Origin: Emticicia aquatilis
GTDB lineage: Bacteria > Bacteroidota > Bacteroidia > Cytophagales > Spirosomataceae
Direction: 5' to 3'
DNA: 64,000 nucleotides
NCBI RefSeq assembly: GCF_014644295.1
Contig: NZ_BMKK01000003.1
Location: 186,001 to 250,000 of the forward strand
The notes beneath the pieces were generated by a model. The model was not told the origin of the DNA. It made no database searches and was given only the letters and a program-made list of their open reading frames with translations. The position numbers and the translations under genes are program-made. Within the stretch, counting starts at the first letter, position 1. Each line of letters begins with the position of its first letter. Below, one piece after another: positions 48,965 to 54,239 of the stretch.

Positions 48965-49143
48965 TGCTTAAAGTTTGATTTATAAGTAGCGAAATTAATA
49001 AAATTCTTAGGTTTTGAATGTTTTTTTATAGTTTTGTTTCGACAAAACAATCGCATCGGCAATGGCCTACCGATTTCTCTGTTGTATTTTTAAATACTTT
49101 CAAATCTATTATCGAAACAAGTAAGAATCTTGTTCTACTGGCG

Positions 49144-50502
49144 ATGCTTCATCTACTTTATAATTTTTCAATACACGCTTATTCGTTTATAATCAGCATC
49201 GTAGCTCCGTTTAACTCCAAAGCAAAGTTTTGGATGGAGGGTAGGAAGAATATTTTTGAACGGCTTGGTTCGACTTCGCTCACCAACCATGATTCGGATT
49301 CAATCACTAACCTTGGTTCGGCTTCGCTCAGCAACCCGTTTACCGAGCGAAGTCGAGGTACGCTTGCTTGGTTTCATTGTGCTTCTTTAGGTGAATTTGA
49401 GCAAGGAAGACCAGTCATTGAAGCGTTTCGAGCGAAATATCCAGCCTATAAAATCTTGGTGACATTCTTTTCGCCATCGGGATATGAAATTAGAAAAAAT
49501 TATGCGGGTGCTGACTACATATTTTATCTGCCAGCCGATACTCCTGCAAATGCTCGAAAGTTTATAGAAATCGTAAAGCCGTCGATTGTATTTTTTGTGA
49601 AGTATGAATTTTGGCGAAATTATCTGAACGAACTCGAAAGAAAGCAAATTCCAGTGATTTCATTTTCGGCCATTTTCCGCCCTAATCAGCTATTTTTTAA
49701 GCCTTATGGTGGGTTTTACAGAGAAGTACTGACAAAGTTTAGACATATTTTAGTTCAGAATCAAGAATCATTCGATTTGCTGAAAAGTATTAATATTCAG
49801 CCAATTACACTCGCTGGCGATACCCGTTTCGACCGTGTGAAACAAATTGTAGATGCCAAAAAAGATATTCCGATTGCTGCCCAATTCAAGGCAAATCGAC
49901 AAGTATTTATGGTAGGTTCGGCTTGGCAAACCGATATGGAAGTTTTGATTCCGTTGATGAACTCATTTAACGTCGACAGGGTTTCGAACCCTGCCGACGT
50001 TAGAGTTACGGACGAAATAGCTTTCGTAATCGCCCCGCACGAAATCCATCGAGAGGAAATAAACGCTTGGCAAAAGCAAATTGAGTTGAAAAGTATTTGT
50101 TTTTCGGAAGTAAAACCCGATACGAAACTAACAGATTATCAAGTACTTATCATTGATAATATCGGAATGCTTTCATCGCTTTATCAATACGCCGACTTTG
50201 CGTTTATTGGCGGCTCATTTGGCAAAGGACTGCACAATATCTTGGAAGCTGCCACTTTCGGAATGCCTATTTTTTTTGGCAATAAAGCTTATCATAAATT
50301 CCAAGAAGCAGTCGATTTAGTCAAACAAGGGGGAGCTTTTGCCGTTTCTTCAACCAATGATTTGGGCGAAATATTGAAAAACTTACGCTCAAACGAAGCA
50401 AAAAAGAAGGAAACGGATAAAATTTCGCAGAATTATGTTTTACAGAATATCGGTGCTACCGAAAAAGTGATGTCGGTTGTAGCATCAATTCTTAACAATT
50501 AA
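49144..50502 (+). CDS. kdtA: 3-deoxy-D-manno-octulosonic acid transferase with two palindrome-encoded insertions
   Basis: Adds Kdo to the lipid A precursor at the inner membrane. 452 residues from the ATG at 49144 ('MLHLLYNF', a hydrophobic anchor as in other KdtA); an upstream start at 49018 would add unlikely residues. 'WFHCASLGEFEQGRP' with the catalytic Glu, 'VKYEFWRNYL', 'FSAIFRPNQLFFK', 'GDTRFDRV', 'GSAWQTDME', 'FVIAPHEIHREEI' and 'IGGSFGKGLHNILEAATFGMPIFFG' are all present. About 32 residues (41-72) between the membrane anchor domain and 'WFHCASLG' are encoded by a palindromic repeat (49267-49358). Another palindrome (49968-50002) encodes about 12 residues just before 'FVIAPHE'. Both keep the frame, and the conserved parts look undamaged. 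Confidence 0.92.
   Translation: MLHLLYNFSIHAYSFIISIVAPFNSKAKFWMEGRKNIFERLGSTSLTNHDSDSITNLGSASLSNPFTERSRGTLAWFHCASLGEFEQGRPVIEAFRAKYPAYKILVTFFSPSGYEIRKNYAGADYIFYLPADTPANARKFIEIVKPSIVFFVKYEFWRNYLNELERKQIPVISFSAIFRPNQLFFKPYGGFYREVLTKFRHILVQNQESFDLLKSINIQPITLAGDTRFDRVKQIVDAKKDIPIAAQFKANRQVFMVGSAWQTDMEVLIPLMNSFNVDRVSNPADVRVTDEIAFVIAPHEIHREEINAWQKQIELKSICFSEVKPDTKLTDYQVLIIDNIGMLSSLYQYADFAFIGGSFGKGLHNILEAATFGMPIFFGNKAYHKFQEAVDLVKQGGAFAVSSTNDLGEILKNLRSNEAKKKETDKISQNYVLQNIGATEKVMSVVASILNN
49267..49358. repeat. palindromic repeat element inside kdtA (1)
   Basis: Two direct copies of a 22-base unit (49267-49288 and 49315-49336, 20 of 22 identical, core TTCGRCTTCGCTCA) are followed by an inverted partial copy GAGCGAAGTCGAGG (49345-49358). 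The second copy and the inverted copy can fold together. The unit is GC-richer than kdtA and lies in a part of the protein where homologues have a short linker. It is an in-frame insertion. Confidence 0.8.
49968..50002. repeat. palindromic repeat element inside kdtA (2)
   Basis: Sixteen-base arms (TAACGTCGACAGGGTT at 49968-49983; AACCCTGCCGACGTTA at 49987-50002) with one mismatch and a TCG loop. It is translated in frame as part of 'FNVDRVSNPADVRV'. The AGGGTT/AACCCT core is close to that of the intergenic hairpin at 50943-50980. Confidence 0.8.
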
Positions 50503-50928
50503 ATAAACCCCAGCGACAATTAGCAGTCCGCCCGCAATTCTCCAAGCGTTGATTTGGTGCAATTTGAAGCCTAAAAGCCCATAATGGTCAAGTAGCATGG
50601 CAGTTATGAGTTGCCCTGCCACAATCAAACAAATCATATTTGCCGAGCCAATTTTTTGTACGCTTAAAATAACAGTCGTTACAAAAAAAGCCCCTAAAAC
50701 TCCACCCGTTAATTTCCACCACTCCAACGATTTTAAGGTTGCCATTGTCGGCACTGATTCTTTGAAAAAAGGCGTAATCAATATCAAAGCAACTAAACCC
50801 GATGCAAACGAAATGATGGCCGCATAAATTGGATTATTGATAGACCTCCGCAGCTCGGCATTTACGCCCGACTGCGTGCTGTTAGTAACGCCACATAAAA
50901 AAGCAAGAATGTAGTAGATGATGCTCAT
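50485..50928 (-). CDS. DMT-superfamily membrane protein (YdcZ/DUF606)
   Basis: 147 residues with five hydrophobic helices. 'YYILAFLCGVTNSTQSGVNAELRRSINNPIYAAIISFASGLVALIL' and 'WWKLTGGVLGAFFVTTVILSVQKIGSANMICLIVAGQLITAMLLDHYGL' are typical of the DUF606 (YdcZ) transporters, which usually work as two-gene pairs or fused forms; only one half-size gene is seen here. Its 3' end overlaps the 3' end of kdtA by 18 bases on the opposite strand. Confidence 0.88.
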   Translation of the reverse strand: MSIIYYILAFLCGVTNSTQSGVNAELRRSINNPIYAAIISFASGLVALILITPFFKESVPTMATLKSLEWWKLTGGVLGAFFVTTVILSVQKIGSANMICLIVAGQLITAMLLDHYGLLGFKLHQINAWRIAGGLLIVAGVYLIVKN

Positions 50929-50942
50929 GGCTAATTAGTTTG

Positions 50943-50980
50943 TTTCATAGCGTAGGGTTCGCAGGCCCTACGCTATGAAA
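50943..50980. repeat. intergenic palindromic element
   Basis: TTTCATAGCGTAGGG (50943-50957) and CCCTACGCTATGAAA (50966-50980) are perfect 15-base arms with an 8-base loop. It lies between argE and ydcZ, and its loop region TTCGCAGG extends the AGGGTTCG core also seen in the kdtA element. Might terminate argE transcripts only weakly, as no T-run follows. Confidence 0.75.
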
Positions 50981-51012
50981 AGCGTTTGTATGAGGTTATG
51001 AAACGATTATTT

Positions 51013-52092
51013 TTATATAATAACCTTGCCAAGCATAGTGATATATAGCTTGATACCTTCTTCAATTTCATCAAGAAAAATAAATTCGTCGGCCGTGTGC
51101 GAGCGAGCCGAATCGCCAGGCCCCATTTTCAGAGATGGACAATCAAGCAAAGCTTGGTCAGAAGTCGTTGGCGAGCCATAAGTATTTCGTCCCATCGAAA
51201 TTCCAGCTTGCACAATCGGATGTTCTTTCGGAATACTCGACGGACGCAAACGAATTGAGCGAGGAACAACTTCACTTTCGATGTTTTTCTTCACAACATC
51301 CGTAATTTCTTCCAAAGTATATTGCTCTGTTACTCGAATATCGACCGTAAACTTGCAAGTATCAGGCACAACATTGTGCTGCGAACCAGCATTTATCATC
51401 GTTACGCTCATCTTGATTGGTCCGAGGTTTTCAGAAACTTTAGGGAATCTATAATTCTGAAACCAAGCAATATCTTTCACGGCTTTGTAAAGTGCATTTT
51501 CGCCTTCATCACGGGCAGCATGCCCCGATTTTCCATGAGCAATACAATCCAAAACTAATAAGCCTTTTTCGGCAACTGCTAAATGCATTTGGGTTGGTTC
51601 GCCTACAATCGCAAATTCAATTTCGGGTAATTCTGGTACAACCATTTCAAGACCTTCTCGTCCCGAAATTTCCTCTTCGGCAGTCGCCGCCATAATGACG
51701 TTATATTTTAAGTCATTTCTATAATAAAAATAACAGAAAGTTGCAATCAACGAAACCAAACAGCCACCCGCATCATTGCTGCCGAGGCCGTAAAGTTTAC
51801 CTTCTTTCACCAATGGATTCAACGGATTGAGTGTCCAAGAAGGGTTGGGCTTTACGGTATCGTGGTGAGAATTTAATAAAACCGTTGGCTTAGAAGCATC
51901 GAAAAACTTATTTCTCGCCCAAATATTATTCTTTTTTCTACGATACGGAATATTTCTTTCACGAAAAAACTCTTCGATAATCGCTGCCGTTTCGTCTTCT
52001 TGTTTGCTGAAAGATTCGGTTTGAATTAAATCTTTCAGAAGCTCGATGGCATCTTTAGTAAGTGTTTCAACTAATTCTGAATTTTGAAGCAT
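51013..52092 (-). CDS. argE: M20-family deacetylase, probable ArgE-type
   Basis: Zinc-dependent amidohydrolase that should release acetate from N-acetylornithine or, as in other Bacteroidota, N-acetylcitrulline, in arginine synthesis. 359 residues from the ATG at 52092 (a TTG at 52101 is in frame). Metal ligands fall in 'LLNSHHDTVKPNPSW', 'GLGSNDAGGC', 'ATAEEEISGREGLE' and 'GEPTQ', with the last His in 'RSHTADEF'. The dimerisation domain starts at 'GKSGHAARDEGENALYKAV'. It follows argB on the same strand, 117 bases apart. Confidence 0.85.
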   Translation of the reverse strand: MLQNSELVETLTKDAIELLKDLIQTESFSKQEDETAAIIEEFFRERNIPYRRKKNNIWARNKFFDASKPTVLLNSHHDTVKPNPSWTLNPLNPLVKEGKLYGLGSNDAGGCLVSLIATFCYFYYRNDLKYNVIMAATAEEEISGREGLEMVVPELPEIEFAIVGEPTQMHLAVAEKGLLVLDCIAHGKSGHAARDEGENALYKAVKDIAWFQNYRFPKVSENLGPIKMSVTMINAGSQHNVVPDTCKFTVDIRVTEQYTLEEITDVVKKNIESEVVPRSIRLRPSSIPKEHPIVQAGISMGRNTYGSPTTSDQALLDCPSLKMGPGDSARSHTADEFIFLDEIEEGIKLYITMLGKVII

Positions 52093-52209
52093 AGAGTTCA
52101 ATAATGAATGATTGATTGAGCGAATGAGTGAATAAAGAAAGTTTACTCTCTTCTAAATTGCTCAAATAATATGATTTTTATTGTTGACCGCCAACTGTTG
52201 ACCGTGGAC

Positions 52210-52992
52210 TTACAGAATTATCTGTGTTCCTCGTGTACCTTCGGCAACGGCTTGTTTTAGTTCATCGGCATGGCAAATCGTTACTTTCGCAACGCCTCTT
52301 TGCAATGCCGCAAAGGCATTATCAAGTTTCGGAATCATACCAGCATTGATTACCCCCGAAGCCTTATAATCGGCATAAATGCTTGGCGTGAGCTGCGGAA
52401 TTACCGAGTCGTCGTCATCTGGGTTTGAAAGTACACCTTTTTTCTCGAAACAATAAATTAGATTTACTTCATACTGCTCAGCCATCGCTACTGCCACCGA
52501 TGAAGCTTGTGTATCGGCATTCGTATTGAGCATATTCCCTTCTTTATCAAACGTCAGCGGAGCAAAGATTGGCGTTAGTTCATTCTTTAAAAAATTATCT
52601 ATCAATGGTGCATTTACTTTTTCTACATCGCCCACGTAGCCATAGTCAATGTCTTTTACGGCACGTTTTTTTGCCAAAATTACGCCACCATCTGCTCCTG
52701 TAAGACCAAGAGCATTGCAACCGAGGGCTTGTAATTGTGCCACAATTTGCTTATTTACGAGTCCGCCATAAACCATCGTTACTACTTCGAGCATTGGCAA
52801 ATCGGTAATTCTGCGGCCGTCAACCATTTTGGTTTCCACATCAAGTTTTACGGCAATTTTTGTGGCTACTTTTCCTCCACCGTGAATCAAAATTTTTGAG
52901 CCTTCGAGAGCGGCAAAATCTTCGAGGAATTGTTTACATGAGCGAGGATTATCAATTACATTTCCTCCGATTTTGATGATGTTTAATTTCAT
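52210..52992 (-). CDS. argB: N-acetylglutamate kinase
   Basis: 260 residues of the amino-acid-kinase fold. 'LNIIKIGGNVIDNP' binds phosphate, 'KILIHGGGKVATKIAVKLDVETKMVDGRRITD' binds the acyl-glutamate, 'LTGADGGVILAKK' and 'PIFAPLTFDKEGNMLNTNADTQASSVAVAMAEQYEVNLIYCFEKKGVL' are family regions. In some Bacteroidota the enzyme uses N-succinylglutamate; which acyl group applies cannot be told here. Second step of arginine synthesis, next to argE. Confidence 0.92.
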   Translation of the reverse strand: MKLNIIKIGGNVIDNPRSCKQFLEDFAALEGSKILIHGGGKVATKIAVKLDVETKMVDGRRITDLPMLEVVTMVYGGLVNKQIVAQLQALGCNALGLTGADGGVILAKKRAVKDIDYGYVGDVEKVNAPLIDNFLKNELTPIFAPLTFDKEGNMLNTNADTQASSVAVAMAEQYEVNLIYCFEKKGVLSNPDDDDSVIPQLTPSIYADYKASGVINAGMIPKLDNAFAALQRGVAKVTICHADELKQAVAEGTRGTQIIL

Positions 52993-53003
52993 ATATCCAG
53001 ATT

Positions 53004-53050
53004 AAGGAAGTCTTCGCTCGAAGCGAATGTCGCCCAGCGAAGACTTCCTT
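53004..53050. repeat. intergenic palindromic element between divergent genes
   Basis: AAGGAAGTCTTCGCT (53004-53018) and AGCGAAGACTTCCTT (53036-53050) are perfect 15-base arms. The loop itself holds TTCGCT-CGA-AGCGAA sharing the left arm. The CTTCGCTC core is the same as in the kdtA element at 49.3 kb. It lies in the leader region between argB and the PLP enzyme gene. Confidence 0.78.
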
Positions 53051-53105
53051 GAAAATTATAGGCTTTTATCTATATTTGTAAACTTTAATAATACAAAATT
53101 ACAAA

Positions 53106-54239
53106 ATGAAAATCGAAACTCTTGCGATTCACGCAGGAAATCATGGCGACCCAACCACTGGAGCAGTTGTTCCTCCTTTGATTCTTTCTACGACCTTTGA
53201 GCGTGCCGCCGATGGAAGCATAGTTGAAGGTCGAGATATTTATACCCGTGCCTCGAATCCTAACCGACGAGCCTTAGAAGAAAAACTGGCTGCCCTCGAA
53301 GGTGGGAGCGAAGCCATTGCTTTTGCATCTGGGCAAGCCGCTACGATGAGTGTTTTTCATTCGTTGGGTGGGAATAGCCACGTCATTTTGCCCGATGATA
53401 TTTATTATAATACAAAAGTTATCATTGATAATCTCTATGCCAATTTCGGACTTACTTGCACTGCCGTTGATATGACTGATTTAAGTGCAATCAAGCGAGC
53501 GATTAAGAAAAACACAAAACTGATTTGGGTAGAAACACCGTCGAATCCGAGTTTGAAAATCACCGATATTCAAGCGGTTGTGAAAATTGCTAAAGCAAAA
53601 AATATCATGGTAGCCTGCGATAATACTTGGGCAACGCCATTTTTTACTCGACCTTTTGAGTTGGGTGTTGACGTAGTGATGCACTCAACTACTAAATATT
53701 TTGGTGGGCATTCTGATATTTTGGGTGGATGTGTAATTTTACCGGCCGACTCATCGCAAAGCGATTTAGCGAATAAAATTCGTACTTTCCAAACCGTCGG
53801 TGGAGCTGTACCTTCGCCGTTTGATTGTTGGTTATTGAGCCGAAGTTTATCTACTTATGCCGTTAGAATGCCTGTTCATGCTCAAAATGCCATGAAATTG
53901 GCCACTTTTTTAGAAGCCCAACCGCAAATCGAAAAAGTAAATTATCCTGGGCTGAAATCGAACGAATACCATAAGGTGGCTAAAAAGCAAATGACTAATG
54001 GATATGGAGGCATGATGTCGATTTTAGTGAAAGGTGGGCAAAATGAATCAATGGCGTTAGCATCGAAACTCAAAATATTCAAACACGCTACGAGTTTAGG
54101 TGGAGTAGAAAGTTTAATCGAACACCGTTATTCTGTAGAAGGTATTCATTCAACGAGTCCCGAAAACTTATTGCGTATTTCGGTTGGTATCGAAAATATT
54201 GATGATTTGATAGCTGATTTCGAGCAAGCCTTTCAATAA
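53106..54239 (+). CDS. Cys/Met-metabolism PLP-dependent enzyme
   Basis: 377 residues of the cystathionine gamma-synthase/lyase fold. PLP-binding lysine K197 in 'MHSTTKYFGGHSD', 'FASGQAATMSVFHSLGGNSHVILPDDIYY' around the cofactor phosphate, 'WVETPSNPSL' and 'VACDNTWATPFF' with the PLP-ring Asp, and 'GGVESLIEHRYSVEGIHSTSPENLLRISVGIENIDDLI' at the end. It could act as cystathionine gamma-synthase, beta/gamma-lyase or methionine gamma-lyase. Closely similar members cannot be separated by eye, so no symbol is given. Its promoter region contains a palindromic element. Confidence 0.9.
   Translation: MKIETLAIHAGNHGDPTTGAVVPPLILSTTFERAADGSIVEGRDIYTRASNPNRRALEEKLAALEGGSEAIAFASGQAATMSVFHSLGGNSHVILPDDIYYNTKVIIDNLYANFGLTCTAVDMTDLSAIKRAIKKNTKLIWVETPSNPSLKITDIQAVVKIAKAKNIMVACDNTWATPFFTRPFELGVDVVMHSTTKYFGGHSDILGGCVILPADSSQSDLANKIRTFQTVGGAVPSPFDCWLLSRSLSTYAVRMPVHAQNAMKLATFLEAQPQIEKVNYPGLKSNEYHKVAKKQMTNGYGGMMSILVKGGQNESMALASKLKIFKHATSLGGVESLIEHRYSVEGIHSTSPENLLRISVGIENIDDLIADFEQAFQ

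Follow-up and report, generated by a model that had tools for sequence, protein, structure and literature searches.

How does a palindromic repeat come to lie in frame within a conserved protein gene, and what keeps its two arms alike? Two stretches of kdtA (waaA) raise this question. The gene is on the forward strand at 49018..50502 of the window, the 64-kb stretch of DNA that was analysed, which is part of contig C3 of a 6.75-Mb genome (G000, here the host genome). The mechanical call is an ORF of 494 amino acids, identified by a match to Pfam Glycos_transf_N (E 1.5e-45) and by alignment with its relatives; judging by this alignment, the ATG at 49144 is probably the start of the conserved KdtA, which then has 452 amino acids. 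The closest named relatives belong to Emticicia, phylum Bacteroidota, and genus-level comparisons cover the host and ten further genomes (G001-G010). A sequence-only reading had described two GC-richer palindromic stretches in kdtA. Both hairpins are borne out by computation, and GC content is 0.53 at site 1 and 0.54 at site 2, compared with 0.39 for the kdtA ORF and 0.38 for the window. The same reading took both stretches for in-frame insertions; this holds for site 2 and only in part for site 1.

Site 2, on the forward strand at 49969..50001, is a palindrome of 33 bp, or 11 codons, which encodes NVDRVSNPADV (residues 276-286). Its 15-bp arms contain one mismatch and enclose a 3-base loop; the wider hairpin at 49968-50002 has 16-bp arms, also with one mismatch and a 3-base loop. 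When site 2 is folded as DNA, z is -6.9 and none of 200 shuffles is equally stable. The host kdtA is longer than that of G008 by exactly 33 bp, and 30 bases separate the insertion point from the same codon in both genes. In an alignment of 25 KdtA rows, the 11 residues are found in the host protein alone. They are missing from 23 rows, comprising all ten other genus genomes and 13 further relatives from 80 loci; the remaining row (L020) is a fragment which ends short of the site. Site 2 is confirmed as a dispersed palindromic repeat that was inserted in frame. Immediately after it, residues 287-293 (of 452) read RVTDEIA in the host and KNDSNLT in G008, differing at all seven positions; this stretch is also variable among other relatives.

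Both inserts had been expected at linker or loop positions, and the predicted structure agrees: both occupy stretches of low confidence in a KdtA model that is confident elsewhere (AlphaFold2, 32 sequences; mean pLDDT 90.8). At site 1, pLDDT is below 50 at residues 49-70; at site 2 it is 80 in block 271-280 and 55 in block 281-290, with confident elements on either side. A search of solved structures with KdtA matches one sequence, 2xci/2xcu, which is presumably the Aquifex protein; its alignment has a gap at site 2. The 11 residues are presumably translated into the mature protein and tolerated there.

The palindrome at site 2 belongs to a repeat family, here called family B, with a layout of 15-bp arms and a 3-base loop (15-3-15; 33 bp). 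Further copies of both kdtA elements had been anticipated elsewhere in the genome, and they are present. Allowing up to three mismatches, the 33-mer is found at 17 places in the host, 14 in G008, four in G005 and one each in G009 and G010; six genomes have none, and reversed controls give none in any genome. The 17 host places are unlinked, and seven of them have identical arms. When the most variable pair is left free, there are 29 matches in the host, and across the bacterial family the pattern is found in 23 genomes out of 150, belonging to six of 36 genera. A covariance model, which scored 150 candidates per genome, gives (with each strand counted) 88 matches in the host, 64 in G008, 49 in G010, 36 in G005, 20 in G009 and 17 in G002, and none in the five other genus genomes. 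Out of a larger total, 75 copies were read individually (31 in the host, 23 in G008, ten in G005, nine in G010 and one each in G009 and G002). On this distribution, family B appears to be a clade-specific, dispersed set of small REP-like palindromes, and it has presumably been mobile. No target-site duplication is seen beyond chance at the 31 host copies, and the family-B pattern has no exact match in viral contigs. Rfam gives a single match up to E 1 across 49000-53200; this is to a miRNA family, at 22 bits against a cut-off of 90, and is taken as chance.

The inner core (AGGGTT, one to nine bases, AACCCT) is a weaker signal, with 24 places compared with three in the control. Some of these are near contig ends: sites of the type AGGGTT(C/G)AACCCT are found no more than about 50 bases from the starts of host contigs C8, C14, C17, C20, C22 and C23, and from the ends of C4, C9, C23 and C26. 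The assembly probably broke at a repeat whose edge is marked by such sites.

Three of the 31 host copies that were read are coding: those in kdtA, in a GH106 rhamnosidase and in an S8 protease. All three use the same reading frame, N-V-x-[RK]-V-x-N-[PL]-A-D-V, and the peptides are NVDRVSNPADV, NVGRVQNPADV and NVGKVSNLADV. The GH106 copy is shared by the host and G008 and is absent from G010, G009, G002, G003 and G005; distant matches in G001, G004, G006 and G007 have no copy and a shorter linker. The S8 copy is also present in the host and G008; G010 has a decayed form, and eight other genomes lack it. In both genes, the net change in length differs from an exact 33 bp. Frame 1 is free of stops with seven of nine loops tested; TAG and TAA loops, which close it, occur at intergenic copies. 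Other copies spanned by ORFs or close to them were not counted as coding. At L134, the copy precedes the probable start of an FG-GAP protein; the ORF at L304 has no Pfam match; those at L328, L207 and L218 look spurious. L207, on host contig C2, carries two family-B copies (1539-1571 and 1778-1810) at a distance of about 240 bp, where the sequence is partly duplicated; they differ from each other by one paired arm change.

Rickettsia palindromic elements (RPE) are dispersed palindromic repeats which lie in frame within unrelated protein genes. Family B resembles them in that one palindrome family is found both between genes and in frame in unrelated genes, and in that orthologues lack the insert. 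It differs in its long arms, its 3-base loop, the lack of an unpaired CGTC end, the small share of genic copies (3 of 31) and its occurrence in Bacteroidota; this comparison uses the description of RPE rather than their sequences. The parallel with RPE drawn from the sequence alone is thus sound for dispersal and in-frame position, and fails for the tags that define REP and RPE. RPE are also summarised as dispersed in-frame palindromic repeats by Di Nocera 2013 (PMC3733652), a paper that reports REPs within the ORFs of a number of species, and CGTC repeats in five phyla, Bacteroidetes among them. Since palindromes within ORFs of many bacteria were described in print in 2013, the phenomenon is not new, and the earlier statement that the group has no widely described equivalent was too strong.

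The GTAG and CGTC REPs treated there are, like family B, palindromes of 20-40 bp, mostly intergenic between convergent or unidirectional genes, with some in ORFs. CGTC REPs are defined in the same text by an unpaired CGTC tag at one end, a stem of 8-9 bp, a loop of 4-5 bases and a CCA-like tail. In family B (compared here with the CGTC REPs RPE-4/RPE-6), CGTC is paired inside the stem, the stem is 15 bp, the loop is three bases, the flanks vary and there is no CCA tail. The 28 intergenic host copies also have no constant tag in their flanks, unlike GTAG REPs. Perfect inverted repeats are described in protein genes of Nematomorpha mitochondria as well (PMC6649704); those palindromes are mitochondrial and reach 284 bp, unlike family B. 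Literature searches of open PMC papers found no description of an untagged family like B. Three things look new: family B itself, the existence of coding copies whose sites are empty in relatives, and the pairing of arm changes between orthologous copies.

REPs may be associated with RAYT transposases (REPtrons), and the host genome has ten Y1_Tnp matches. None of these ten loci has a family-B copy within about 1.5 kb, and a RAYT link for family B is therefore rejected. At one of them, L147 on host contig C10, a Y1 transposase gene interrupted by a stop has hairpins of another sequence on either side (1421-1464 and 1925-1982). The downstream one resembles an intergenic hairpin of the window, CATAGCGTAGGG... 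at 50943..50980, which has no R1 match at E <= 1. A second intergenic hairpin, at 53004..53050 with arms AAGGAAGTCTTCGCT, is like one at C5:211218 in the same genome. The cores of the kdtA elements had been said to recur in these two hairpins; the hairpins and the AGGGTT and TTCGCTC motifs are indeed present, but the stems differ, neither is family B, and both read as members of other palindrome families. C3:1-400000 and C5:1-400000 together contain 102 hairpins whose arms are roughly 12 or longer, compared with four in one Markov control. The palindromes at C5:107023, C5:217348 and C5:211218 have the 15-3-15 layout with other sequences and may represent further families.

Family-B copies are unevenly placed. 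Of 74 copies classed from mechanical ORF calls, leaving out the window copy, 41 are between convergent genes, 24 between unidirectional genes, two between divergent genes, six in ORFs (those at L304 and L328 being doubtful) and one at an edge. This count repeats orthologous copies; the host alone has 16 convergent, ten unidirectional and one divergent. Background gene pairs in 800 kb of host DNA number 95 convergent, 427 unidirectional and 93 divergent. The excess between convergent genes would suit hairpins which act mainly as bidirectional transcription terminators or 3'-end stabilisers under RNA selection, with the coding copies as strays. T-rich ends (at least five T in the next eight bases) are also in moderate excess, at 17 of the 56 ends of the 28 intergenic host copies compared with a background of 12%; the other 39 ends have no such stretch.

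In the arms of 41 copies (31 distinct), 98.3% of cells are paired, compared with 19-46% in slid controls; most of these copies came from a palindromic search pattern, which biases the set toward palindromes. Changes on both sides are seen at six of 15 arm pairs, compared with at most two in slid controls. The search pattern does not favour such paired changes, since a paired change is charged twice and a broken pair once. Column pair 11/23 occurs in A-T, T-A and G-C forms with no broken form. Further pair types show no excess (10, compared with a shuffle mean of 10.1). Among the 33 pairs of orthologous copies whose flanks match on both sides (seven with one matching flank were left out), 13 arm changes are paired and 22 are single; these pairs are not independent, as one locus is counted in several genomes and one locus is duplicated. 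Correction between arms is evidently incomplete, since single changes outnumber paired ones. The loops of the same pairs are identical in 11, exactly inverted in eight and otherwise different in 14. Inversion taken alone is not beyond chance (eight, compared with a shuffled mean of 4.8; at least eight in 6.7% of shuffles, p about 0.07), while the total of identical and inverted loops is reached in none of 5000 shuffles.

Template switching is known to homogenise arms and to flip spacers (PMC8604942, PMC8794818). These describe the same two features as in family B, arm homogenisation and inversion of the spacer or loop, in PMC8604942 within coding DNA; they concern yeast genes and RNA genes, whereas family B is a dispersed bacterial repeat. 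Correction by template switching is suggested by the arm changes that come in pairs between orthologous copies, both coding pairs among them. Pairing at intergenic copies could be explained by selection on a 3'-end hairpin. No terminator role is evident for the coding copies; even so, GH106 of the host and G008 differs by one paired arm change (R to K together with P to L) and no single change, and S8 of the same genomes by one paired and one single change. A mainly terminator role is accordingly unlikely, though it deserves consideration. A tentative possibility is that template switching renews the mirror symmetry wherever the palindrome lies, so that coding copies drive linked pairs of amino-acid changes and flipped loop codons independently of selection on protein or RNA. 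Among the open PMC papers listed by literature searches, none was found to decide between template switching and RNA selection for REP-like repeats.

Site 1, first described at 49267-49358 and here delimited on the forward strand as 49264..49360 (about residues 41-72, GSTSLTN HDSDSITN LGSASLSN PFTERSRGT), is built differently. It consists of three direct units of 24-25 nt and one inverted copy of another repeat, motif A. The direct copies at 49264-49288 and 49312-49336 are 92% identical over 25 nt, and the third, at 49288-49312, is degenerate (72%). The left arm TCGACTTCGCTC (49270..49281) and right arm GAGCGAAGTCGA (49345..49356) form a perfect inverted pair of 12 nt. The fold is less marked (z = -3.2; one of 200 shuffles equally stable).

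The length of this linker differs among relatives. The GSTSLTN residues also occur in KdtA of G002, where the palindromic core is replaced by TTCGACATCTCTC, and in G009, G010 and L022 the linkers are related but lack the exact core. Site 1 is for this reason not a clean insertion: its motif is palindromic and repeated, as first proposed, but related residues occur in other KdtA proteins without the palindrome, and the absence from relatives expected of both sites is found at site 2 only. Part of the linker is thus older than the palindrome or independent of it. These observations would also suit a plain hydrophilic linker that evolves fast and has codons resembling motif A by chance. Three others speak against it. 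Firstly, the 13-mer core of motif A, TTCGACTTCGCTC, is found at 19 places in 16 loci of the host genome, and the reversed control gives none. Secondly, G008 has a plain motif-A hairpin at the same site of kdtA; the host is longer by 48 bp, equal to two 24-bp units, and G005 has the host length with different units. Thirdly, the core lies in frame in a leucyl aminopeptidase, where the insert is shared by the host, G010 and G005 and is missing from seven genomes, while G008 gives no match. Chance resemblance in a plain linker is consequently rather improbable. Site 1, whose reading as an insertion is confirmed in part, would be better described from these alignments as an expanded, palindrome-bearing variable linker with 24-bp tandem units of the dispersed motif A.

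The exact core lies within Pfam-matched genes at four of the 16 loci (kdtA, peptidase C26, AtuA and leucyl aminopeptidase). Motif A is in frame in L101, L113 and L116, which have Pfam matches; L116, a reductase with molybdopterin and pyridine-nucleotide domains, has a near-core form. The best solved homologue of L114 lacks 14 residues at the motif-A insert. L108 and L111 were excluded from the coding count, as motif A is near the ORF starts there.

It is very improbable that template switching created each palindrome where it now lies, with no family of copies behind them: the paired changes and flipped loops would fit that mechanism (PMC8604942, PMC8794818), and an older linker may have expanded into site 1, but the 33-mer's presence at 17 unlinked places (up to three mismatches, seven with identical arms, control none) and the gain of exactly 33 bp in kdtA largely refute it for site 2, where the family is dispersed.

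The explanation that probably accounts for the locus is that site 2 represents one copy from a REP-like 33-bp family, tolerated in frame and kept symmetrical by template switching, and that site 1 is a motif-A linker. Family-B palindromes would spread as copies through the genome, and most of the survivors would be those just past the 3' ends of genes, chiefly between convergent ones. A copy arriving where a protein has a surface loop would add 11 residues and leave the protein unbroken. In-frame insertion would be tolerated because the unit is 33 bp and frame 1 is free of stops with most loops; because the unit is palindromic, nearly the same peptide would result in either orientation. Once in place, the hairpin would stay symmetrical while its loop may flip. 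The simplest route would be switching of the polymerase between the arms as templates, which is proposed to explain why arm changes are often paired, coding copies included.

For small palindromes which add peptides to proteins, filled sites can here be compared directly with empty ones, since several relatives in the genus have been sequenced. In addition, arm changes that are paired between orthologous copies would give a direct handle on whether template switching or RNA selection is the keeper of symmetry.
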